Virus record (IMG/VR): IMGVR_UViG_3300028595_000065
Coordinates: 1-21,150 of that record
DNA length: 21,150 nt
Source of the DNA: a virus
Reading direction: 5' to 3' (one strand)
Position numbers and translations under genes: made by a program. Shown piece by piece: positions 2,145 through 17,766 of this stretch. Each line of letters starts with the position of its first letter. Positions within the stretch are counted from its first letter, which is position 1. The notes below the pieces were generated by a model. It had not been told where the DNA came from. It was given only the letters and a program-made list of their open reading frames with translations, and ran no database searches.

Positions 2145-2315
2145 GTGAGTCTCAGCTGTCAGTCCTGCGGCTACGTCGAGGAGCACATCAAGAACGAGCA
2201 GATCGTGAGGATCGATCCGAAGAAGCGCAAGCTGGTGTACCGCTGTCCGCAGTGTGGGCACCTGATCCACCACGCTGTCCACTACCATCATGAAAGGGAA
2301 GGCGATGTGCGCTGA
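2145..2315 (+). CDS. Small zinc-ribbon protein (56 aa)
   Basis: The frame from GTG at 2145 to TGA at 2313 encodes a peptide with two CxxC knuckles, C5-Q-S-C8 and C34-P-Q-C37-G-H, the classic zinc-ribbon spacing, followed by a His-rich tail (HHAVHYHHE). No in-frame ATG lies nearby and the ribosome binding site before GTG is weak (TGGGGT), so the exact start is uncertain. It overlaps the terminase start. Zinc ribbons of this size often contact nucleic acids or stabilise protein complexes; the role here is unknown. The short gap from 2121 to 2144 holds nothing recognisable. Confidence 0.6.
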   Translation: MSLSCQSCGYVEEHIKNEQIVRIDPKKRKLVYRCPQCGHLIHHAVHYHHEREGDVR

Positions 2316-3765
2316 TGCCCTGTACCTCGAGGACGAGGAGAAGAAGGACTACGCAGCTCTGCCCTCCCTGGACTACTTCCACCGATCACCGGCTCAGATC
2401 CGCTGCATCGTCGGGCCCGTGGGATCCGGCAAGACCACTGCAGCGGCCTGGGAGATCTGCTATGCTATCCCCTGGTATCTGTACAACTACAAGCACTACG
2501 AGAAGACACGCTGGGTGGTAGTCCGCAACACCTACTTCGAGCTGATGGACACGACCCGCAAGACGATCGAGGAATGGTTCGACTTCGGGGTGTACCGGGC
2601 CGGCACCAAGACCTATGTCATCCACTACCCAGACGGTCCCCAGGTTGAGCTGATGTACCGCAGCTGTGACAGGCCGGACGACATCAAGAAGTTCAAGTCC
2701 CTGGAGATCACCGGGTACTGGATCGACGAGTCCATAGAGGTGAAGGATGAGATCAAAAATATGCTCAAGAACAGGATCGGTCGCTTCCCTCGAAAAAGTG
2801 ATGTTCGGTTTGGTATCGAAACAACCAACCCTCCTGATGTCACCGATCCGACCTATTGGCGGTTCAACTGGAAGTACGTACAGCCGGGACAACCCGGTCC
2901 TGTTATCCCTCCTGGCCCGATCCCTACTAAGGAGCCCCTGCCCAAGCACGAAGGGTTCTGGCAGCCGCCCTACGAGAACAAAGCCAACCTGAGGACAGGC
3001 TACTACGATGACCTGAGGAGGGACTATGGTGACTATCCGGACTGGGTCTCACTCTATATCGAGGGGAAGCCCGGCATCATCGTCAAGGGCAAACCGGTCT
3101 ACAACAACTTTCGCCGGGAGTATCATGTGGCACAGGAGCCGCTTGCTTGGACGGGTGGTCCTCTTTTCGTGGGTTGGGACCACTCGGGTAACACTCCGGC
3201 TGCGGTTGTGGTTCAGATACCGACGGCCGGGAGGGCCCAGGTCCTCCGGGAGTTCTATTCCGATAAGATGGGAATTGTTGACTTTGGCCGTTGGGTTATC
3301 AACAACATCAACATCGACTTCCCTGGAGCTGAACTGGTCCACTGGGGCGACCCGGCGGGATCCAACGAGTTCAACACCAAGACGGGGTTCACATCCAACA
3401 CCAAGCTCTTGAGAGATGAGCTGGACATCGCTGTCCAGGCCAGTGAGCAGAACTTCCGGGTGAGGGTGGAGGCAGTAGAGCAGCAGCTGGGCAGGATCGA
3501 CGGCTTCCTCATGGATCCCAGCTGTATCATGCTGACCAACGGCTTCATCGGTGGCTATCACTACCCGGAGCACGGATCGCTGATGGGCGTGTACCTGCCC
3601 AACGTCCGCAAGAACAAGTACAGCCACCTCCAGGATGCCCTGCAGTACGTCATGGTCAGGCTGTTCAAGCCGATCGACAAGAAACGCAAGGACCTGGACG
3701 CGAACGTCGGGGAGTACTACGATGAGGAAGCCAACCGCTACGACCCCCTGGGGGTCTGGGACTGA
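2305..3765 (+). CDS. terL: Terminase large subunit (packaging ATPase and nuclease)
   Basis: This is the motor that cuts phage DNA and pumps it through the portal into the prohead. Numbered from ATG 2305 (486 aa), the N-terminal ATPase shows Walker A GPVGSGKT at 37-44, Walker B GYWIDE ending in D141-E142, and the coupling motif TTN at 173-175. The C-terminal RNase H-like nuclease shows D292 in GWDHSG, D349 in WGDPAG and D444 in HLQDAL, the expected three acids. The length is typical. ATG 2305 is preferred because AAAGGGA lies five bases upstream; ATG 2290, five codons earlier, has no visible ribosome binding site. All key motifs are present, so it should be active. Confidence 0.95.
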   Translation: MCADALYLEDEEKKDYAALPSLDYFHRSPAQIRCIVGPVGSGKTTAAAWEICYAIPWYLYNYKHYEKTRWVVVRNTYFELMDTTRKTIEEWFDFGVYRAGTKTYVIHYPDGPQVELMYRSCDRPDDIKKFKSLEITGYWIDESIEVKDEIKNMLKNRIGRFPRKSDVRFGIETTNPPDVTDPTYWRFNWKYVQPGQPGPVIPPGPIPTKEPLPKHEGFWQPPYENKANLRTGYYDDLRRDYGDYPDWVSLYIEGKPGIIVKGKPVYNNFRREYHVAQEPLAWTGGPLFVGWDHSGNTPAAVVVQIPTAGRAQVLREFYSDKMGIVDFGRWVINNINIDFPGAELVHWGDPAGSNEFNTKTGFTSNTKLLRDELDIAVQASEQNFRVRVEAVEQQLGRIDGFLMDPSCIMLTNGFIGGYHYPEHGSLMGVYLPNVRKNKYSHLQDALQYVMVRLFKPIDKKRKDLDANVGEYYDEEANRYDPLGVWD

Positions 3766-5084: not shown

Positions 5085-6761
5085 ATGGCTGTGGAAGGAC
5101 GACCTGCCAAGACAGACAAGGAGAAGGCCAGCGCGATCACCGATCGCCTCACGGAGCTGAAGAACCTGCGCTCCCCCTGGGAAGACCTATGGGAGGAGAT
5201 CACGGACTTCGTCCATCCGCGCAGGACATGGTACGCCGGCGAATGGTCGGAGGAGGGCGGGATCTTCGGCGAGAACATCTACGACGGTTCCCCTGGGAAC
5301 GCCGCTCAGATGTTGGCCGACGGCATGATGGCCTATCTGGTCAGCCCATCGATCAAGTGGTTCTCCCTGCGTACCGAGATCATGGATCTGGAAGATCTCC
5401 CCGGTGTTCGCAGGTGGCTGCAGGAGCTGGAGGAGCACTACTACTCGGTGTTCCGGCGGTCGAACTTCTATCACACCATGGCCCAGTACTTCATGGACGC
5501 TGTCACCCTGGGCACGGCCACGATGTACTCCGAGGAGAACCCCGAGACTCAGCTGCCGGTGTTCTCCTGCCGGCATCCATATGAGGTGTACATCGCTGAG
5601 AACATGCGGGGTACAGTGGACACGGTGTTCCGGGAGTTCCGCTACACAGCCAGACAGGTCGTCCAACGGTTCGGGAAGGTGAGTCCCCAGCTGACCGATC
5701 TGGCCAAAACGGATCCGGATCACAAGATGACCTGCGTCCATGCTGTGTTCCCCAGGAACGACGACTGGATCAAGACGAAGTCCGCCAGGAACATGGCCTA
5801 CGCTTCGGTGTACCTGCTACCGACACAGAAGCGAGTCACCGGTGAGCGCCTGCTGCGGGAGTCAGGCTACCGGACCAACCCGTACCATGTCTGGCGCTAC
5901 CGTAAAAACACGCAGGAGACCTACGGAAGGTCGCCCTGCAGCGATGCGATCTATGACATCAAGATGATCAACCAGATGGGCCGCACAGGCTTGAAGGTAG
6001 CACAACGGGCTGCAGAGCCGCCCTACAACGTGCCGGAGGACATGCGGGGGAAGGTGAGAGTCGGTCCCCTGGGCATGAACTACTACGAGGATCCCTCAAG
6101 GATCATCGCTCCGATCGCCTCTCCCACCCAGTATCCGATCACGATCGAGGAGAAGCGCCGGCTGCAGGAGATCATCGAGAGCCGTTTTCATACGGACCTC
6201 TTTCTATTGTTGACCCGAGCCGACAAACCTATGACAGCTCGAGAGGTGGTAGAGAAGCAGGGCGAGAAGGCCGCCATCCTCGGGACCATCATCGGTCGGT
6301 TGGACTCGGAGTGCTTGGATCCGCTCTTTGATCGGATCTTCGATATCGAGTGGAATGCAGGAAGGATCCCTCCCCTCCCACCGGCGTTGATGCAAACGCC
6401 AGGGACCCAACTGCGGATCGAGTACAACGGGCCGCTTGCACAGGCGCAAAGGAGGCTGTTCGAGTCCCAAGGGACACTCCAGGCCCTGGAGTCAGGGCTC
6501 CCGTTGGCACAGGTCGATCCTACCGTGCTCGATAACATAGACCTCGGCGTAGCATTCCGGAAGATCGTGCAGTCTTTGGGGATCGACGAGGAAGCACTCC
6601 GTGACGAACCGGAGGTGGCCATGATCCGGGCCCAGAGGGCCCAGCAGCAAGCGATGGCCGCCCAGCTGGCCCAGGCTGAGAGTATGGGCAAAGCTGCCAA
6701 GGGCTTGAACGAAAAGGTGCAGCCCGGTAGCCTACTGGAGCAGATGCAGGGGCAGCGGTGA
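5085..6761 (+). CDS. Portal (head-to-tail connecting) protein
   Basis: The 558-residue protein matches the podovirus head-tail connector family (T7 gp8 and BPP-1/epsilon15 type). It has a helical start with PWEDLWEEITDFVHPRR, then the conserved early region with IYDGSPGNAAQMLADGM and GMMAYLVSPSIKWF, a central beta-rich part, and the helical region SRFHTDLFLLL near residue 370. The C-terminal part is Gln/Ala-rich and probably forms the internal barrel or crown. It assembles as a ring at one capsid vertex, docks the terminase during packaging and later carries the tail adaptor. Length is normal for the family. It is preceded by GGGAATAAC, a modest ribosome binding site, and overlaps the following GTG by four bases. 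Confidence 0.93.
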   Translation: MAVEGRPAKTDKEKASAITDRLTELKNLRSPWEDLWEEITDFVHPRRTWYAGEWSEEGGIFGENIYDGSPGNAAQMLADGMMAYLVSPSIKWFSLRTEIMDLEDLPGVRRWLQELEEHYYSVFRRSNFYHTMAQYFMDAVTLGTATMYSEENPETQLPVFSCRHPYEVYIAENMRGTVDTVFREFRYTARQVVQRFGKVSPQLTDLAKTDPDHKMTCVHAVFPRNDDWIKTKSARNMAYASVYLLPTQKRVTGERLLRESGYRTNPYHVWRYRKNTQETYGRSPCSDAIYDIKMINQMGRTGLKVAQRAAEPPYNVPEDMRGKVRVGPLGMNYYEDPSRIIAPIASPTQYPITIEEKRRLQEIIESRFHTDLFLLLTRADKPMTAREVVEKQGEKAAILGTIIGRLDSECLDPLFDRIFDIEWNAGRIPPLPPALMQTPGTQLRIEYNGPLAQAQRRLFESQGTLQALESGLPLAQVDPTVLDNIDLGVAFRKIVQSLGIDEEALRDEPEVAMIRAQRAQQQAMAAQLAQAESMGKAAKGLNEKVQPGSLLEQMQGQR

Positions 6762-7796: not shown

Positions 7797-8762
7797 ATGG
7801 CCGTAAAAACGATGCGTAACCAGCTCACGCTCGTAGAGCTGGCGAAACGTGTCGGGGACGGCAACATCCTCGAGATAGCCGAGATCCTCGAGCAGACCAA
7901 CGAGATGCTCGAAGACGCTGTCTGGCTTGAGGCGAACATGGGAGATCATCACTTGATCACCGTGCGAACCTCCCTGCCCTCCGGCTCCTGGAGACTGCTG
8001 AACAAGGGTGTCCCACCCGAAGCAAGCTCCACCCGCCAGATCAAGGAAGGCATCGGCATGCTGGAGTCCTACTCCAAGGTCGATGCCAAGCTGGTGAAGA
8101 TCTCGCCCGATGGGCCGAGGTTCCGGAGCCAGGAGGACATGGCCTTCGTAGAAGGCATGAGCCAGACGCTGCAGGAGACTCTGATCTACGGCAACGTGGA
8201 TGTGAACCCCGAGCAGTTCGACGGACTTGCAAACAGATACAGCGCAGCGGCGCTTGCCAACGTCCATGACGGTGGTGGAACAGGCAGCGACCTGACTTCT
8301 GTTTGGATCATTCAGTGGGGCAGGACCAGGGTCCACATGATCTACCCCCGTGGACACAGGTCCATGGGAGTACAGGTAACCAACCTGGGAGAAGACACCG
8401 TTCAAGACGCAGACGGTAACGAGTACCAAGCCTTCCGGACGCACTTCGAGATCAACGGTGGTCTCTGTGTTCGGGACGATCGATGTGTGCAGCGGTATGC
8501 CAACATCGAGACAGCCGGTTCCACCAACATCTTCGACGAGAACTTCCTGATCGACGCTCTCACGCTGATGCTTCAGCGTGGCAAGGGCTCGATCATCTAC
8601 GGGAACCGGACGATCCAGGCTCAGATCGACAAGCAGGCCAACATCAAGACCAACGTCTACTACACGGTAGGCGAAGAGTTCGGGCGGCCTGTCAGCTACT
8701 TCCGGGGGATCCCGGTGAAGCTGGTCGAGAAGCTCGTCAACACCGAAGATCAGGTGACCTAA
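7797..8762 (+). CDS. Major capsid protein (GP7-like, HK97 fold)
   Basis: The 321-residue protein follows the scaffold gene and matches the epsilon15 gp7/BPP-1 coat family as recalled. Its N-terminus has LTLVELAKRVGDGNILEIAE, then DAVWLEANMGDHHLITVRTSLPSGSWR and the region LESYSKVDAKLV, followed by a loop-rich middle. It ends in a core with IYGNRTIQAQIDKQ and SYFRGIPVKLVEKLVN. This protein forms the icosahedral shell. No Cys-based or protease-processed delta domain is visible, consistent with separate scaffold use. Start ATG 7797 has a strong GAGGAGG, which lies in a hairpin. Likely the most highly expressed gene here. Confidence 0.9.
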   Translation: MAVKTMRNQLTLVELAKRVGDGNILEIAEILEQTNEMLEDAVWLEANMGDHHLITVRTSLPSGSWRLLNKGVPPEASSTRQIKEGIGMLESYSKVDAKLVKISPDGPRFRSQEDMAFVEGMSQTLQETLIYGNVDVNPEQFDGLANRYSAAALANVHDGGGTGSDLTSVWIIQWGRTRVHMIYPRGHRSMGVQVTNLGEDTVQDADGNEYQAFRTHFEINGGLCVRDDRCVQRYANIETAGSTNIFDENFLIDALTLMLQRGKGSIIYGNRTIQAQIDKQANIKTNVYYTVGEEFGRPVSYFRGIPVKLVEKLVNTEDQVT

Positions 8763-9237: not shown

Positions 9238-9681
9238 ATGACAAACGCCCATGCGGCATGGGACTGGTTGATCGGGCTCGAGCAGATGACCCTGGACACC
9301 CAGCCGGCTCCCGCAGACTATGTGGTCGGAGAGACCATCACAGGACAGTCGAGCGGAAAGACGGCCGTCGTGGTGGCAGTGATCAGCTCTACGGTGTACC
9401 TGATCAAGGACCGGGACGGTGCGTTTACCGACGGTGAGGAGATCACCGATGAGACCGGCAACACCATCGATCTGGCAGCCGGCTATCCGGCGATCGTAGC
9501 GGCCAACGCTATGGCAGCCGTGGCAGCCGATGCGGATGTCCCGAAGTTCCTGCGCGACAAGATCACGGCCATCCAGGCTGACATCATCGCTGGGGGAAGC
9601 GCCAAGCTGACCCGCGAACAGCTGGCCTATCTCGGTCAGGCGCTGTCCTATCTCGGGACCAACGTCCACGAGCCCGTGTAG
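9238..9681 (+). CDS. Virion-region protein with GxTITGQ-type beta domain
   Basis: A 147-residue protein from ATG 9238 after CAAGGAGAATGGC. Residues about 17-87 form a beta-rich unit with YVVGETITGQSSGKTAVVV, then GAFTDGEEITD and AAGYP. The same arrangement appears in the tail nozzle protein at about residues 509-581. Such small beta units occur repeatedly in phage structural proteins. The remaining part is helical (FLRDKITAIQADIIAGG) with an LTREQLAYLGQALSYLG end. It is likely a minor structural protein. There is a short run of Ala residues between the two halves that may be a linker. Exact role unknown. Confidence 0.7.
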   Translation: MTNAHAAWDWLIGLEQMTLDTQPAPADYVVGETITGQSSGKTAVVVAVISSTVYLIKDRDGAFTDGEEITDETGNTIDLAAGYPAIVAANAMAAVAADADVPKFLRDKITAIQADIIAGGSAKLTREQLAYLGQALSYLGTNVHEPV

Positions 9682-9895: not shown

Positions 9896-10462
9896 ATGGT
9901 CAGTACTGTTGTAGATATCTGCAACATGGCACTGATCAGGCTTGGAGCGAACCGGATAACCTCGATCGACGACGACTCCAAACAGGCTCTGCTGTGCAAG
10001 CAGCTCTACGATCAAACCCGAGATGAGGTCCTGCACGACCACGACTGGAACTGCTCGATCAACCGTCAGTCTCTGGCCCAGCTGGCCGAGACCCCGGAGT
10101 TCGGGTACGACTACGTGTACCAGCTGCCCACCTCCCCCTACTGCCTGAGAGTGCTCGACTGCGACAACGCAGATGTGGACTACCGGGTGGAGGGACGAAA
10201 ACTGTATACCGATGTGGACGAGATCTCGATCCGTTACATCTCCAGGGAGATCGATCCCACGAAGTATGACTCGTATCTGGCAGAGTGTATCGCCCTGCGT
10301 CTGGCCTCCAAGCTGGCCTATGCGCTACCGAACAAACAGACCATGAGACAGGACATCATGGGCGAGTACATCGTGATGCTCCGCAGGGCTCGAGGTCGGG
10401 ATGCCCTGGAAGAGCGCCAGGACGGGATAGACCAAGCCGACTACTGGGAAGACGAACGATAG
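9896..10462 (+). CDS. Tail adaptor (T7 gp11-like tail tubular protein A)
   Basis: A 188-residue protein with the hallmark N-terminus ICNMALIRLGANRITSI (residues 8-24), then the HDWNC segment at 49-53, YVYQLP at 73-78 and LRVL at 84-87, ending with a long helix (AECIALRLASKLAYALP and following). This pattern defines the T7 gp11/P22 gp4 type adaptor that forms a ring below the portal and connects the nozzle. Start ATG 9896 follows AGAGGAGTAAACC. The acidic C-terminus (QADYWEDER) is typical. Length is close to T7 gp11 (196 aa). Confidence 0.88.
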   Translation: MVSTVVDICNMALIRLGANRITSIDDDSKQALLCKQLYDQTRDEVLHDHDWNCSINRQSLAQLAETPEFGYDYVYQLPTSPYCLRVLDCDNADVDYRVEGRKLYTDVDEISIRYISREIDPTKYDSYLAECIALRLASKLAYALPNKQTMRQDIMGEYIVMLRRARGRDALEERQDGIDQADYWEDER

Positions 10463-10471
10463 GAGGTTCGT

Positions 10472-10876
10472 ATGGCAACAGGAACACTGGCCCTTGCCGG
10501 CCAGATAAACTTTCCGGCTGGTAACGACAAGGCGTTCATACTTGACTGGACCAGCGACGCATCGGGTGATGTGGATCAGAGTATCAGCGATCTGATCGGA
10601 TCCCAGGGTGGGCGAGTGATCGCCGCCCAGACAGTTCCCGGCTTGAACGGAGATCTGTCAACGGATCTACCGACAGCCCTGTATGATGTGGAAGTCCAGG
10701 ACGAGTATGCCACCGACATCATGGCAGCGGCCCTGGCCAACCGTAGCGGTACGGTCGGAGAACGGGTGAACCCCTCTCCAGGGATCCCTGTGTGGACACC
10801 GCTTACCCTGATCGTGGACAACGCCGGAGTATCCAACTCAGGACGGATCATCATCGTCATCAGTGAAGAAACATGA
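10472..10876 (+). CDS. Hypothetical structural protein (134 aa)
   Basis: ATG 10472 follows AGGAGGTTCGT, an excellent ribosome binding site. The protein is rich in small and beta-forming residues (LALAGQINFPAGNDKAFILDW, here split across strands) and contains GGRVIAAQTVPGLNGDLSTD. It ends in a beta strand, GRIIIVISEET. No cysteine and no signal peptide are present. The composition and place between the adaptor and the secreted Fn3-like protein suggest a minor virion component. No family is recognised with confidence. Its stop overlaps the next start by four bases. Confidence 0.65.
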   Translation: MATGTLALAGQINFPAGNDKAFILDWTSDASGDVDQSISDLIGSQGGRVIAAQTVPGLNGDLSTDLPTALYDVEVQDEYATDIMAAALANRSGTVGERVNPSPGIPVWTPLTLIVDNAGVSNSGRIIIVISEET

Positions 10877-11265
10877 AAAAGCTGATCCTGATCCTTCTCA
10901 TGTGCTTGCCCCTGCTGATGGGGCAGACAGTCCACTATGCTAACCAAGTCACAGTGGCATGGGATCCGGTTTCAGATACGGGTGTCATTACTTACGAAGT
11001 ATTTGTGGCTCCGTATCCTCTCCCTGATCCTCTGGATCTTGGAACACTGGACCCTCCGGTTGAAACGGCGGCGACTGAAGCTACAGTCAGCTTTTCGATC
11101 GAAGGTGCGTACACCGTCGGGGTTAGAACCAAGAAACAGGTAGACACAGAGATCCTGTACTCCGAGGTGAACTGGTCCTTCGAGAACGGAGCCAACACGC
11201 CGGACCCTTTTATTGTCGGGTACTACGTGCCCCCGGATGCACCGCTAACTCTGAGGATCCAATAG
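10873..11265 (+). CDS. Secreted or envelope-targeted Fn3-like protein
   Basis: The N-terminus MKKLILILLMCLPLLMGQT is a textbook signal peptide: two lysines, a hydrophobic core and a probable cleavage site after Gly17. A cysteine lies within the core but the context (LLMC) is not a good lipobox. The mature part begins with VTVAWDPV, then TYEVFVAP and AYTVGVRT, the strand pattern of a fibronectin type III or related Ig-like domain. A protein exported by the infected cell is unusual inside a tail operon. It might act in the periplasm or outer surface, for example superinfection exclusion or virion attachment. The function is unknown. Confidence 0.65.
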   Translation: MKKLILILLMCLPLLMGQTVHYANQVTVAWDPVSDTGVITYEVFVAPYPLPDPLDLGTLDPPVETAATEATVSFSIEGAYTVGVRTKKQVDTEILYSEVNWSFENGANTPDPFIVGYYVPPDAPLTLRIQ

Positions 11266-11756
11266 TGAGACTGCAGCCTGAGACATCCGGCCGGGATCAC
11301 TCAGGGCTGACGGTCACCGAAGACGATCACCACCCTGTCCCGACCTCTGTCACGATCGACAACACGACCCAGGTCATCAACGCCGGGACGTTGTGGAACC
11401 TGGACATCTCTTTGCCTCAGTCGAACTATCAGGCTGCACGAGTTATCATCCATGGACCGGATCAGTGCGCCGGCGCTGCGTGGTACGAGTTCGCCGAGAT
11501 CTATGTGACACGAGACAGCGCGGAGGCGATGGGTCACAGCGTGGAGGAGATCAGTTTCAAGAAAGTCTATGCGGTGACATACTCCAAGCAGGTCGCCGAC
11601 ACCTACCTGAGCCAGAAGATCTTCACCAACGCCTCGCCCCCGAACATCGTGCTACAGGATGCGGTCCTCACAGGGAGCTTGTTGCGGCTTTCCTTTCGCA
11701 ACACCTATACGGCCAACGAAACCCTCTGGGTGAAAGGACAGGCGTTACTGTTTTGA
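11265..11756 (+). CDS. DHH-motif virion-region protein, paralogue 1 of 3
   Basis: GTG at 11265 overlaps the preceding stop. Starting at this GTG gives MRLQ, matching the MRLE starts of the two following paralogues. Residues 19-23 are EDDHH, and DH occurs at 11-12. The C-terminal part (LSQKIFTNASPPNIVLQDAV, then ETLWVKGQALL) aligns with the ends of the two following proteins by eye, indicating a shared beta-rich fold. DHH-type motifs are common at the start of phage fibre or receptor-binding proteins and could bind a metal ion. No enzymatic motif is visible. Virion surface or tail role is inferred. Confidence 0.68.
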   Translation: MRLQPETSGRDHSGLTVTEDDHHPVPTSVTIDNTTQVINAGTLWNLDISLPQSNYQAARVIIHGPDQCAGAAWYEFAEIYVTRDSAEAMGHSVEEISFKKVYAVTYSKQVADTYLSQKIFTNASPPNIVLQDAVLTGSLLRLSFRNTYTANETLWVKGQALLF

Positions 11757-12241
11757 GACTCGAAGGCAAGGGCAAGCTGGCAGACCATGACCTCACGAAC
11801 GGGATCGGGGAACACGATCACCATCCTCGAGGCCAGTCTTTCCGGGTTCTGATCAACAACCAGAGTATCCCCGGCTCCAGTGCTTACGAGCACCGGGTCT
11901 CCCTGGGGCGAGAGGGTCACAAAACGATCCGGGCGGTCCTGAGAGGAAACCAGAACGTGGACATCCAGGGCCACACCGGCTGTGTCCTGATCGGCACCGA
12001 CACCTCCCAGGAGTGTACCGGGTTCTCGATCAAGCCCTATGGAGGATCAGGCTACCCGATCAGCTACATGGGCTGTTACTCCCGGCTGCACGGGGACTCC
12101 TATCTCACTCCTGCCCTGTTCGGGGGACTGGTACGGATGCGGGACATCTACATCGATGGGGACGAGGCGGTCCTGGAGTTCTACAACGTGAGCGGCTTCA
12201 CCCGGTTCTTCAACTGCTACGGCATGGTGGAAGTCAAATGA
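11753..12241 (+). CDS. DHH-motif virion-region protein, paralogue 2 of 3 (TTG start)
   Basis: TTG at 11753 overlaps the upstream TGA, and reading from there gives (M)RLE, the same opening as its neighbours; this is why the start is chosen over long upstream extensions. DHD lies at 11-13 and HDHH at 21-24. The middle contains LINNQSIPGSSAYEH and GHTGCVLIGTDTSQ. The end, LTPALFGGLVRMRDIYIDG then FFNCYGMVEV, corresponds to the LSxKIF...WxxxA end of paralogues 1 and 3. 162 residues. Probably a beta-sandwich structural protein. It has four visible cysteines, more than its relatives. Confidence 0.66.
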   Translation: MRLEGKGKLADHDLTNGIGEHDHHPRGQSFRVLINNQSIPGSSAYEHRVSLGREGHKTIRAVLRGNQNVDIQGHTGCVLIGTDTSQECTGFSIKPYGGSGYPISYMGCYSRLHGDSYLTPALFGGLVRMRDIYIDGDEAVLEFYNVSGFTRFFNCYGMVEVK

Positions 12242-12756
12242 GACTCGAGGACTACCTGATGAGGGCCCTGGACCACGGGGTGTACGTGAACGTCGGCACC
12301 CACGACCACCACGATCAGCCGGAAAACATCGAGGTGTCGAACACCACCTTGAGCGTTCAGCCCCTGCCTGGGGGACCGGGGGTGTGGGAGATCGACATTC
12401 CGGACGAGGCGACCCTGGTGATGTTCAGCTTCCGCAGCAACCACACTGTGGCCAACGGGGGAGCCAAGGCTGGTGTCATAGGGGTGGCCAACGACAACAG
12501 CTTGCACACCACGGCCATGGGCCTGGGCGGTCACGGGACTCTGGGTACATCTGCCTACAACCATGTGTACGCCAAGCCGGCGGCAGCCCTGAACCTGAGC
12601 GACAAGATCTTCAGCGCGGGAGGGGACCTGATCAGTCTCACCGAGGCCTACATCACCGGGACCGTTCCCAACCGGAAGCTGCGGACGGAGTGGACGAACT
12701 ACGGAGCCAGCACGTTGACGCTGAACTGCTGGGGACAGATAGCGGTGATCGGATGA
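12238..12756 (+). CDS. DHH-motif virion-region protein, paralogue 3 of 3
   Basis: ATG 12238 overlaps the upstream stop. The protein opens MRLEDYLMRALDHG and has HDHH at 22-25. A beta-rich body follows, with a Gly/Ala/Thr-rich middle (NGGAKAGVIGVANDNSLHTT). The C-terminal block LSDKIFSAGGDLISLTEAYI through LNCWGQIAVI aligns with paralogues 1 and 2. 172 residues. It is directly followed, with a four-base overlap, by the glycosyltransferase, so the two are translationally coupled; the paralogues are therefore the nearest candidates for its acceptor, which is an inference from order only. Confidence 0.68.
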   Translation: MRLEDYLMRALDHGVYVNVGTHDHHDQPENIEVSNTTLSVQPLPGGPGVWEIDIPDEATLVMFSFRSNHTVANGGAKAGVIGVANDNSLHTTAMGLGGHGTLGTSAYNHVYAKPAAALNLSDKIFSAGGDLISLTEAYITGTVPNRKLRTEWTNYGASTLTLNCWGQIAVIG

Positions 12757-13898
12757 ACATCTTGATGGTGTGCATGGAGGATCCCTGGGACATCCTGGGA
12801 GGCAGGGGTGTCGCGGTGCGGGAGATGAGTCAGGCCCTGGCGAAGCAGGGCCACGAGGTGACCGTGGCCTGTTCGGGAGAGAAGGGGGGCAAGATCAAGG
12901 GCGTGAGGAAGGTGGTTAGCGACAAACTGATCTGCTGGAAACCTCGGAACGCGAACGTGTCCAGCCTCCTTGCCATGGACGTGCAAATGTTTCGGAGCAT
13001 AGCCAAGCTACTTGCCACCGGGGAAAGATGGGATGTAGTGCACGTCCATGACTGGGATGCTGTGCAAACCGGACGGTGCATCAGGGATGCTTTGGAGATC
13101 CCGATGGTTGGAAGCCTTCACCTGTCTATGACGTATCTGAACCGGGACGGGCAGGCCACTATAACCGATGACCTTCTGTACTGCATGCAGCAGGAGGCCC
13201 ATCTGGTGGCCGACTCAGATGCCCTGATAGTCTCGTCAGCTGCGTATGCTGATCTGGTGCGCCGTCATTTTATGGTCGAGAGGAAGGTGGATGTCGTGCC
13301 CAACGGCATAGACACCAAGTGGTGGAAGGCCAACGGAACACCTCGAGCCGAAAACTTGGCTTTGTTCGTGGGCAGGATCGCCGAGATGAAGGGAGTTCGG
13401 GAGATCCTCGAGGCCGTGGAGGCCGGCACGGACTACATGGTCTGGCTCGTGGGAGAAGTGAACGCCAACACCGAGGAAGAGAAGGAGAGCTGGCCGCTTA
13501 CCCGTAAGATCCGGGCCCTCGAGGCTGAGGGGAAACTGAGCTGGATGGGGTTCAAGGATCACAAGGAGCTGCGGAAGTTGTACAGCATGGCCACCGTGGG
13601 ACTGATGCCGTCGGTCCATGAGCCGTTCGGGATCGCGGCCCTGGAACACATGGCGATGGGCGTTCCGTTGATCTCCAGTGAGCGTGGCGGCCTGAGGGAG
13701 ATCGTGGTAGACAAGCAGGGCGCAGAGTATGCGCTGATCATCGAGCCGGATCCCCAGCAGATCCGGGCGGCTCTGGAGATGTGCAAAGACGAGGGAGTGC
13801 GGAAGAGCTTGAGTGCGGCCGGAGTGAAACGGGCCAGGGAGTTTTCCTGGCCGGCGGCAGCAGAGAAACTAGTAGAGATCTACAGGAGGGTGGCGTGA
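12753..13898 (+). CDS. GT4-family (GT-B fold) glycosyltransferase
   Basis: A complete 381-residue GT4-type enzyme that would transfer a sugar from a nucleotide donor to an unknown acceptor. The N-terminal Rossmann domain shows MNILMVCMED with the GGRG loop at 16-19 and VHVHDW at 96-101. The linker has VVPNGID at 181-187. The C-terminal donor-binding domain has FVGRIAEMKGV at 205-215 and the E290-PFGIAAL-E298 pair (EX7E), followed by GVPLISSERGG. All motifs are intact. ATG 12753 overlaps the preceding stop; longer upstream extension lies inside paralogue 3 and is rejected. Location within a virion operon suggests modification of a virion protein or host surface glycan. The exact sugar cannot be read. 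Confidence 0.9.
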   Translation: MNILMVCMEDPWDILGGRGVAVREMSQALAKQGHEVTVACSGEKGGKIKGVRKVVSDKLICWKPRNANVSSLLAMDVQMFRSIAKLLATGERWDVVHVHDWDAVQTGRCIRDALEIPMVGSLHLSMTYLNRDGQATITDDLLYCMQQEAHLVADSDALIVSSAAYADLVRRHFMVERKVDVVPNGIDTKWWKANGTPRAENLALFVGRIAEMKGVREILEAVEAGTDYMVWLVGEVNANTEEEKESWPLTRKIRALEAEGKLSWMGFKDHKELRKLYSMATVGLMPSVHEPFGIAALEHMAMGVPLISSERGGLREIVVDKQGAEYALIIEPDPQQIRAALEMCKDEGVRKSLSAAGVKRAREFSWPAAAEKLVEIYRRVA

Positions 13899-14380
13899 TC
13901 GTACTGACGGAAGCGATAACAGTGAGAAACCTGAGCCGGGTCAAGGTGCAGAACGTGAGCTACGAGGCCAACGAAGAAAGAGGCCAGGAGTGGGCAGAGG
14001 TCTGGTGTGACTACGGGTACATGGAGGACGGGAGTTTCTTGTCCTATCCCCACCCGGTGACCAAAACTTCGGTCCTGTACTTCAAGTTCGAGAACGGCAT
14101 GCACCCGGAACGGGCCGGCATGATGCTCGGGCGATGTGACACTTGTAATGCTTGGTACTTCGCTGTCAGTGGCCCCTGCACCGAGCCGGGCTGCAGCGGG
14201 ACCATCGAACCGTTCCCCAGCTACAACCGGTTCCGGAACAAGATCGACGCATCGACGGAGCGGGACGTGTTTACAGCTACCGAGGCGTTCCTGGTGCACA
14301 AGGATGGGACTGAAGGGCTGCGGTTCCCAAACCCGGATGACATCAGCGATGTCCGGCCCCTGGTGGGTGGTACAGCATGA
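13895..14380 (+). CDS. Zinc-ribbon-containing hypothetical protein (161 aa)
   Basis: GTG 13895 overlaps the glycosyltransferase stop and follows CAGGAGGGTGGC. The protein contains C81-x2-C84 and C95-x4-C100 (CDTCNAWYFAVSGPC and TEPGC), a plausible zinc site, embedded between beta-rich parts. The N-terminal half contains WAEVWCDYGYMEDGSFLSYP, and the C-terminal part FLVHKDGTEGLRFPNPDDI. No known family is recognised. It is coupled at both ends to its neighbours (ATGA at 14377). It may be a minor virion protein or an accessory of the glycosyltransferase. Confidence 0.68.
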   Translation: MIVLTEAITVRNLSRVKVQNVSYEANEERGQEWAEVWCDYGYMEDGSFLSYPHPVTKTSVLYFKFENGMHPERAGMMLGRCDTCNAWYFAVSGPCTEPGCSGTIEPFPSYNRFRNKIDASTERDVFTATEAFLVHKDGTEGLRFPNPDDISDVRPLVGGTA

Positions 14381-15000
14381 TCGTCAGGCCTTCCTCCACA
14401 GAACGGATCCATGCCCTGGCCCTGGATGAGTCCCTGGATCCGGTTACCGGCAAGACGGATCTGCTGATCTCGATCTGGCGGGTATCGGACGGGTTCTACC
14501 TGGACTTCAACGACTCGACGTTCAAGGCCGCAGGCTGGACAACTCGCCAGACTCCCATGACGGAGTTCGATGCCACCAACGCTCCGGGAGAGTACTACTA
14601 CGACTTCTCCGTGCCGGCCGGCGATGAGGTCTATATCGCTCGAGTGGATCAGAGCCCAGGCACCGATGTGGCGAACCTGCCCCAGCTCGGGGAACTGAGG
14701 GCCGTCACCTACTACGTGGTGGGGATCGAGAAGAACACCGACCTGGATGCCTTCGAGTTCCTCATGGTGGATCCTGGAGAGAACTACCTGACCGGGTTGA
14801 CAGTGACAGCCCAGCGATCGATCGACGGTGCGGCCTTTGCCGGCTGTGCGAACGCTGTCACCGAGGTGGGCCTGGGGATCTACAAGATCGATCTGGCGGC
14901 AAGCGACCTGAACGGTAATGTCATCACTCTGCTGTTCTCGGCCACAGGGGCCCGGAACCGCTACATCACCATCGTGACCAACGAGGCGATCGCAGCATGA
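14377..15000 (+). CDS. Two-domain beta-sandwich virion protein (207 aa)
   Basis: The protein appears to consist of two Ig-like or related beta units. The first (about 20-105) has KTDLLISIWRVSDGFYLDF and PGEYYYDFSVPAGDEVYIARV. The second (about 130-205) has YLTGLTVTAQRSIDGAAF, EVGLGIYKIDLAASDLNG and LLFSATGARNRYITIVT. The second unit is a domain I recall from many phage capsid- and tail-associated proteins of unknown detailed role. A central segment (LRAVTYYVVGIEKNT) links them. Start ATG overlaps the preceding TGA. Likely a virion decoration or tail protein. Confidence 0.72.
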   Translation: MIVRPSSTERIHALALDESLDPVTGKTDLLISIWRVSDGFYLDFNDSTFKAAGWTTRQTPMTEFDATNAPGEYYYDFSVPAGDEVYIARVDQSPGTDVANLPQLGELRAVTYYVVGIEKNTDLDAFEFLMVDPGENYLTGLTVTAQRSIDGAAFAGCANAVTEVGLGIYKIDLAASDLNGNVITLLFSATGARNRYITIVTNEAIAA

Positions 15001-15498: not shown

Positions 15499-17766
15499 AT
15501 GAGTTACGCCACAGTACTGCTGGCCAGGTTTATCAAGGGAGAGGTGAGCGACTTTGTCTCCGGTCAGATCGATGTCCCGGACACTCTGGCCTCCCTGAAG
15601 ACCTGCGAAAACATGCTTCCCCTGCCCCAGGGGCCAGCTCGTCGCCGGGCTGGGACGATCTGGATCTACGACTACGATCCCAGCGACCACGGGGACTTGG
15701 CAAGGTTGGTGCCCTACGAGAGGAACGCCGATCAGGCCTATGTCTTGAAGTTCACCGATCTCAAGATCCGGATCTACACCAACGACACAGCAGCACCATA
15801 TGAACCGGAGCAGATCATTACTGGCGGTCTGGCTCCCGTCGAGGTGGTCACGCCCTACACAGAGGCCCAGCTGTTCGAGCTGCAGTTTGCCCAGCAGCTG
15901 GACGAGCTGTACATCGCGCATCCGGCCCATCACCTGAAGATCCTCAAACGAACGACCGATGATCTGACCTGGACACTGACCGATGCGGTGATGAAGAACG
16001 ACGGGGGTACGGACATCTTCAACACAGCAGGGCCTCCGGCAGAGTATCCACGATGCGTGGCCTTCTACCAGTCCCGGGTGATCGTGGCCGGCACCGATGC
16101 AGAACCGCAGACGGTCTGGGGGTCTGCGGTGGGTGACTACACTTCGTTCAACTACGATGCGGCCTCGCCAAACGACGCAGATGGCTGGAAGTTCCCCCTG
16201 GCCGACTACCGGACCGACACGATCGTGTGGATCACGGGAGGATCTGACCTGCTGATCGGTACGATCGGAGCTGCATGGATCATGACGGGAGGAGGAGGGC
16301 CCCTCACGCCTACCAACGTCCAGGCAGCTCCCCAGGTCTTCTGGGGATCCTATCCCCTGCAGCCGGCGAAGGTGGGAGCCCTGGTCCTGTTCTTGTTGAA
16401 GAACCAGCAGTATGTCCGGGCCATGCAGTACCGCCTCGAGCGAAACGGCTACGAGGCACCGGACATGACGATGGCCGCCTCTCACATCGGAGAAAGCGGG
16501 ATCGTGGACTGGGCCGTCCAGACCTCCCCCCACACGATCCTGTGGGCCGTGAGAGCTGATGGGGTCCTGCTGTCCTTCTCCTTCGAGGGGGGAGCCGTGG
16601 CCGGCTGGGCCCGGCACACCACAGAGGGCGAATTCGAGAGTGTGGCTGTGATCCCCAACGGGTTCGAGGATCTGATCTACGTCAGCGTGAAGCGGAACGT
16701 CAACGGCTCGGATGTCCGCTACATCGAGTACTTCGACAAGTTCGCCGCAGAGAGCCAGTCTCTGGGCGTGTTCGTGGACTGTGCGAAGATCTTCAACCCG
16801 GACAACGACGGCTACTTTTCGTTCAACGATATCTCTGCGATCGCCCTGACCGATCCGATCCGGCTGACCGTCCTGGGGAACCCCTTTCAGAACGGGGACA
16901 TCGTCCAGATCACGGAGGTGGTGGGGACCACAGAGCTGAACGGCAAGTACTACAGTGTCCAGAAGTTTGGAGCGAACCTGCTGGACCTGTACCTGGAAGA
17001 TGGGTCTGATGGGGTAGATGGGACCCTCGAGCAGCTGACCATCGATGTGGATCCTTCCCCCAACAACTTCGCCGTGGGGGCAACGATCACCGGCCAGACA
17101 TCGCTTGAGACCTGTGTCGTGGTGAGTGTGATCGACAACAAGAACTACATCGTCAGCGCCCGGAGCGGGGTGTTCACTGATGGGGAGATCCTCGATGACG
17201 GGACCAACTCCGCAGACTGTGGGGCCGGCTTCCCGGTCTTTGTGGCTGAGTACACGCCCTACGTGAGCGGGGGCAAGGTCCTGTTTGCCAGAACGACCTT
17301 GGACGATCTGGACCACCTGGAGGATGAGGAGGTCTCGATCCTCACCGATGGAGCCAACCATCCGAACCGGACGGTAGCCTCTGGAGAGGTCTCCCTGCAG
17401 GTCCACGCCTATTACGCGATCGCCGGGCTTCCCTACACTTCGATCCTGCAGCCGTTGAGGATCGAGGGTGGTGGGGAGACTGGGCCCTCCCTGGGCAAGA
17501 TGAAACGGATCTACGCAGTGACCATACGGTTCATAGAGAGCCTGGGCGCGAAGATCGGTCAGACCCTGGACGACTTGAAGATCCTGCCTTTCCGGGAGGG
17601 AGCCACAGAGATGGATCAGGCCGAGCCCCTGTACTCCGGGGACCGGAGGATCGAGTTCGACGGGGACTATACGTTCGACAACTACGTGATCATCGTACAG
17701 GACCAGCCCCTGCCCATGGTGGTGGCGGCCATCGCGGTTGAGATGGAGACCTATGAGGGCACTTGA
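15499..17766 (+). CDS. Tail nozzle (T7 gp12-like tail tubular protein B) with E1_FCCH-like insert
   Basis: A 755-residue protein, close to T7 gp12 in length. The N-terminus has the family pattern: VSDFVSGQIDVPDTLASLKTC followed by ENMLPLPQGPARRRAGT. The propeller-like body includes LFELQFAQQLDELYIAHPAH, CVAFYQSRVIVAGT and GWKFPLADYRTDTIVWITGG. About residues 435-507 resemble the phage E1_FCCH domain (ITEVVGTTELNGKYYSV). About 509-581 hold the same GATITGQTS...GVFTDGEIL unit as the protein at 9238. The C-terminal region returns to nozzle-type sequence (SLGKMKRIYAVTIRF). It forms the distal tube of the short tail. ATG follows TGAGGAGATAGCG. Confidence 0.88.
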   Translation: MSYATVLLARFIKGEVSDFVSGQIDVPDTLASLKTCENMLPLPQGPARRRAGTIWIYDYDPSDHGDLARLVPYERNADQAYVLKFTDLKIRIYTNDTAAPYEPEQIITGGLAPVEVVTPYTEAQLFELQFAQQLDELYIAHPAHHLKILKRTTDDLTWTLTDAVMKNDGGTDIFNTAGPPAEYPRCVAFYQSRVIVAGTDAEPQTVWGSAVGDYTSFNYDAASPNDADGWKFPLADYRTDTIVWITGGSDLLIGTIGAAWIMTGGGGPLTPTNVQAAPQVFWGSYPLQPAKVGALVLFLLKNQQYVRAMQYRLERNGYEAPDMTMAASHIGESGIVDWAVQTSPHTILWAVRADGVLLSFSFEGGAVAGWARHTTEGEFESVAVIPNGFEDLIYVSVKRNVNGSDVRYIEYFDKFAAESQSLGVFVDCAKIFNPDNDGYFSFNDISAIALTDPIRLTVLGNPFQNGDIVQITEVVGTTELNGKYYSVQKFGANLLDLYLEDGSDGVDGTLEQLTIDVDPSPNNFAVGATITGQTSLETCVVVSVIDNKNYIVSARSGVFTDGEILDDGTNSADCGAGFPVFVAEYTPYVSGGKVLFARTTLDDLDHLEDEEVSILTDGANHPNRTVASGEVSLQVHAYYAIAGLPYTSILQPLRIEGGGETGPSLGKMKRIYAVTIRFIESLGAKIGQTLDDLKILPFREGATEMDQAEPLYSGDRRIEFDGDYTFDNYVIIVQDQPLPMVVAAIAVEMETYEGT

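Follow-up and report, generated by a model that had tools for sequence, protein, structure and literature searches.

A six-gene cassette with a GT4 glycosyltransferase recurs in unrelated phages and probably serves virion decoration

A GT4 glycosyltransferase (GT) gene was found within an unbroken chain of six genes, P1-P2-P3-GT-ZR-DN (positions 11265-15000), which behaves as a portable module and appears to move whole between otherwise unrelated phages. We consider it probable (roughly 0.6) that this chain is a virion-decoration module whose GT glycosylates the cassette's own proteins with a host sugar. The window, i.e. the whole stretch of DNA analysed, is the 21,150-base virus record IMGVR_UViG_3300028595_000065 (positions 1 to 21,150). 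It represents a short-tailed, T7-like phage with T7-type tail genes, and the chain is set between tail tubular A and tail tubular B. The features are as follows.

2290-3765, terminase
5085-6761, portal/head-tail adaptor
7797-8762, major capsid
9896-10462, tail tubular A
10873-11265, plus strand, upstream neighbour with an N-terminal signal-like segment (cluster c33)
11265-11756, plus strand, P1, first His-arm beta-sandwich paralogue (163 aa, GTG start, invariant H12, H22 and H23)
11753-12241, plus strand, P2, second paralogue (162 aa, TTG start, 4-nt overlap with P1)
12238-12756, plus strand, P3, third paralogue (172 aa, ATG start, 4-nt overlap with P2)
12753-13898, plus strand, GT4 glycosyltransferase (381 aa, ATG at 12753, 4-nt overlap with the P3 stop)
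13371-13394, plus strand, GRIAEMKG loop of the GT, donor phosphate-binding region (residues 207-214)
13620-13646, plus strand, EX7E motif EPFGIAALE of the GT with the two catalytic-site glutamates (residues 290-298)
13895-14380, plus strand, ZR, CxxC...C...C (zinc-ribbon) protein (161 aa, 4-nt overlap with the GT)
14377-15000, plus strand, DN, fibre-like protein (N-terminal ~110 aa conserved, C-terminus variable)
15499-17766, tail tubular B

Every junction from P1 through DN is a 4-nt overlap in the window; ATGA is common to the end of P3 and the start of the GT, and GTGA to the end of the GT and the start of ZR. All three paralogues have MRL N-termini, and the MRL start of P2 aligns with its relatives. 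A preliminary description of this DNA had noted an intact GT4 enzyme with an EX7E motif, overlapping the third 'DHH' paralogue upstream and a zinc-ribbon protein downstream, and this was borne out, with 4 nt on each side. The genes that it placed at 12238-14380 are present, but the unit is larger than that span and runs from P1 through DN. The small protein with a signal-like N-terminus encoded just 5' of the cassette (10873-11265) is shared among the relatives only with locus L005 (894-1289) and is therefore not regarded as a core cassette member.

The window GT matched the Pfam families Glycos_transf_1 (E = 1.2e-26, 93.7 bits, cut-off 26.4) and Glyco_transf_4 (E = 1.2e-21, 78 bits, cut-off 28.5), and the nearest solved structures were GT4 enzymes (maltose-1-phosphate synthase, MshA-type, GlgA and PimA). 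The EX7E motif and the Arg/Lys donor-phosphate residues that define GT4 are both present, and no membrane segment was detected (maximum 19-residue hydropathy 1.23). The window encodes, as judged from sequence, a GT4 enzyme that is both complete and soluble. In a ten-sequence alignment the G-R and K-G positions of the GRIAEMKG loop were invariant. All 25 family GTs (36-88% identity) carry the GR..MK loop, both EX7E glutamates and an open frame, a degree of conservation that implies that the enzyme is active and under purifying selection. As a rule, each cassette phage has one GT4 per record.

Relatives were sought in 2.9 million viral contigs using profiles built from the window and locus L002 and then from ten loci. 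A single-sequence GT scan of these contigs gave no match, and a two-sequence profile was needed. The first scan, with P3 only, returned a single relative, L002. This long-tailed phage of 64.5 kb encodes a tape measure, and it has the six genes of the window in unchanged order (34-62% identity). The GT profile gave 30 family contigs with 34-50% identity to the window GT; beneath them, apart from one short fragment, a gap extended down to generic GT4s below 30%. The P3 profile gave 26 loci, with the GT as the next gene in all of them, and the P2 profile gave 25, all in contigs of the same family. The GT, P3 and P2 seeds, scanned separately, thus retrieved the same set, together 34 contigs besides the window. 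Wherever a contig was long enough to judge, the order was P1-P2-P3-GT-ZR-DN. P3 was present in 32/32 contigs with sequence 5' of the GT, and the full P1-P3 triplet in 31; the other contig is cut inside P2.

The recurrence of this arrangement in 34 other contigs is far beyond chance. The co-occurrence of the enzyme with the 'DHH' proteins, which had been proposed as a check, was therefore upheld, and the opposite pattern (triplet without enzyme, or the reverse) was sought in the 34 contigs and not seen, although the P2 and P3 seeds came from GT-bearing loci and remote orphan triplets could escape such a scan. Evolutionary distances for P1, P2, P3 and the GT were correlated pairwise (r = 0.60-0.79), values reached in 0/999 permutations. 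The 4-nt P3/GT overlap recurs in 10 of the 25 representatives; in the others the two genes are separated by small gaps or, in some cases, by as much as about 180 nt. These distances depend on automatic start calls, and the values of 542 and 566 nt in L040 and L088 are artefactual, the GT start having been set at an internal insertion. These observations support the enzyme and the triplet being one heritable unit. The cassette was absent from a set of 50,697 phage records, in which single P1, P2, P3, ZR and DN sequences had no significant match and the GT had generic matches only.

Other GT4 loci served as a contrast. The 80 bacterial and archaeal loci, whose GTs show 22-38% identity across the best segment, contained no other cassette gene, and the 25 distantly related viral loci likewise had none, with the exception of L049. 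In a tree that included many cellular and other viral GT4s the family formed one clade (25/25, support 0.78), into which none of these fell. The cassette GT thus resembles the CAZy GT4 enzymes (GT-B fold; PimA, MshA, GlgA/GlgM-like) in its two-domain GT-B sequence, its EX7E motif and its full-length matches, and differs from them in its separate phage-only clade and in that the cellular relatives lack the cassette. Locus L049 (5988-8248 of an 88 kb virus) is a diverged two-paralogue version without the histidine arm and without ZR: two P1-like paralogues (hhalign probability 96.5%, E = 7.5e-10) are followed directly by a GT4 and then by a repeat fibre. Since L049 repeats the plan with remote homologues, the plan of tandem beta-sandwich proteins, GT4 and fibre is wider than the family, and the minimal plan excludes ZR and the histidine arm. 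No further member was retrieved when the L049 GT itself was used as the query.

The three 'DHH' proteins, described earlier as paralogues, are so by profile-profile comparison (P3 versus P1, 99.7%, E = 8e-27; P2 versus P3, 99.0%, E = 6e-18). In a tree of 75 sequences P2 formed one clade (support 0.997) and P3 another (1.0), with P1 as the remaining group; the triplication is accordingly older than the dispersal of the cassette, and none of the copies has been lost. Three histidines (H13, H24 and H25 in P3) are invariant in 75/75 sequences. The AlphaFold2 model of P3 is a beta-sandwich (mean pLDDT 80.8) with most of the body confident and a low-confidence N-terminal arm, in which the invariant histidines are placed. 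Conserved histidines on a poorly modelled arm would be in keeping with an interface, or a metal site, that takes shape only once the proteins assemble. No Ser, Thr or Asn is strictly invariant across the three paralogues in the 75 sequences (best N154, 73/75, with Y107 at 73/75 as well), so no acceptor site can be named on P1-P3.

The best structural neighbours of P3 were weak and were tail-fibre or tailspike domains (best PDB E = 1.5e-3, TM 0.32), among them Klebsiella phage Kp9 fibre gp42 and the vB_ApiP_P1 tailspike. Unlike such tip domains, P1-P3 are separate small proteins with a tri-histidine arm and occur as an ordered set of three. P1-P3, ZR and DN had no informative match in PHROGs or Pfam, and PDB searches with the P2, P3 and ZR profiles gave nothing significant. 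The AlphaFold2 model of ZR (mean pLDDT 90.5) had no solved fold match, the Foldseek search returning noise only. In L040 the ZR homologue (8340-8732) has lost the whole zinc-ribbon loop and retained the rest of the protein, and in L021 ZR is fragmentary; the ribbon is therefore not strictly essential. The C-terminus of DN varies from about 129 to 1025 aa across relatives. Pfam and PHROGs matches in its repeat region (Tox-HDC, UPF0180 and others) were rejected; mostly they had no passing stretch, and they look like repeat artefacts.

The 25 representatives fall into ten flank contexts (eleven with L049), even when a single shared flanking gene is allowed to join loci. Families near the cassette include capsid, portal, head-tail adaptor, head-morphogenesis and baseplate/structural genes. 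The cassette had at first been taken for a feature of a tail operon, a description that does not hold for relatives in which it lies beside capsid, portal or baseplate-type genes. Morphotypes were judged from searches for sheath, tape-measure and T7 tail-B genes: a tape-measure gene was found in 15/34 records, T7-type tail B only in the window and sheath matches, below the curated cut-off, in three.

The reading that we favour may be set out as follows. Translational coupling would lead to the GT4 being made in step with P1-P3. The enzyme would take a sugar from the host nucleotide-sugar pool and, while the proteins are still unassembled in the cytoplasm, attach it to at least one of P1-P3 and DN. 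P1-P3 and the fibre-like DN would probably then assemble on the particle, P1-P3 perhaps as a hetero-oligomer stabilised by metal through the N-terminal arms with their three invariant histidines. A host nucleotide sugar is the probable donor because genes for sugar-nucleotide synthesis are nearly absent: among the 34 records an NTP-transferase was found in none and an epimerase in one, although the records are incomplete and absence is weak evidence. The single case, in L021 (G012:13379-14089, minus strand), is an NAD-dependent epimerase family gene some 2.4 kb away from the Pfam match of the GT, and is the only sugar-nucleotide gene found in these records. A role of the decoration in immune evasion or attachment, as suggested in the preliminary description, would be a further and speculative step. 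A more specific form, in which P1-P3 are an obligate hetero-oligomer with metal at the invariant histidines, carry the sugar of their own GT and are mounted with the fibre on capsid or tail in unrelated phages, whether short- or long-tailed, as a plug-in glyco-decoration, is put forward tentatively as a possible refinement.

Since all six genes always occur together, co-occurrence cannot single out the acceptor among P1-P3, DN and other virion proteins. It is thus conceivable, if rather unlikely, that the GT acts on DN alone, or else on a different virion protein (the capsid, for example), with P1-P3 as unmodified partners, e.g. glycan-binding, lectin-like proteins. DN is present wherever the contig extends far enough and its C-terminus is variable in length, and beta-sandwich lectins occur among the weak fold matches of P3; these lectin matches have TM values of only about 0.2-0.25 at low probability, however, while the GT lies directly 3' of P3 and its distances track those of P1-P3 (r = 0.60-0.68). 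Modification of a host surface glycan, against re-infection or receptor competition, with the operon shared only for late expression, would agree with the fact that GT4 enzymes mostly build envelope glycans, the solved homologues including PimA, GlgA and MshA types. The lack of a membrane segment and the constant linkage to structural genes in unrelated phages make this reading improbable. Serotype-conversion systems are membrane-bound and are not known to travel with structural genes; gtr-type GTs are membrane-spanning with flippase partners, whereas the neighbours of the soluble cassette GT are structural.

Glycosylation of phage DNA bases is very improbable here. Base modification is the role of many phage GTs, as stated in PMC12619734 (citing Pyle 2024), yet the position of the cassette GT is fixed within a virion module, and thymidylate-synthase-type genes, the one enzyme family covered, were found in 1/24 incomplete records, far from the cassette. 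Near-absence of the thymidylate-synthase-type and NTP-transferase genes makes DNA modification unlikely, as far as incomplete records can tell. That the GT is a moron, a passenger carried by chance in a tail operon, would be the default had a single genome been at hand; this was rejected on the co-occurrence data, the order being fixed in 34 further contigs and at least ten contexts with the motif intact in 25/25, and its probability is negligible.

Glycosylation by the cassette GT of its own proteins would have its closest parallel in mycobacteriophages. Glycans are reported on the major capsid proteins of Che8 and Rita (PMC11256854, citing Freeman et al. 2023) and on capsid and tail tube subunits, at their C-termini (PMC12619734, citing Freeman et al. 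2023, doi 10.1016/j.chom.2023.05.028). According to these sources, the GT is phage-encoded there as it is here, and the glycans lie on virion proteins, with an antibody shield as the proposed role. There the sugars are attached to major capsid and tail tube proteins at the C-terminal ends, whereas the acceptors of the cassette are putative; in Maravista the GT genes are near the 3' end of the genome, in contrast to one GT locked, together with three small paralogues and a fibre, in a six-gene block of unrelated phages. No close homology to mycobacteriophage GTs was found: the 18 GT matches with E <= 1e-5 in the 50,697 phage records came from fecal metagenome, cyanophage and Salmonella records and included no mycobacteriophage, a remote relation being possible. 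A dedicated GT cassette is most likely new within phage virion glycosylation, provided that the putative acceptors are correct. If so, virion glycosylation would reach beyond a few actinobacteriophages, with a mobile cassette carrying it among uncultured phages that differ in tail type; five gene families without informative PHROGs, Pfam or PDB matches would gain names and a testable function; and a compact enzyme-plus-acceptor pair would become available for study and for protein glycoengineering.

Two further observations concern the window outside the cassette. Three successive small genes at 259-1168, near the contig start, have the repeated segments EREQLLEDLADMVNQHCRYAGELHAE and GECGLNGSIEKLEAVL in common, a tandem duplication. 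In a BLAST comparison a 147-aa protein encoded 3' of the capsid gene (9238-9681) was found to share a domain, with a GQTS...FTDGE.. segment, with tail tubular B (15499-17766).
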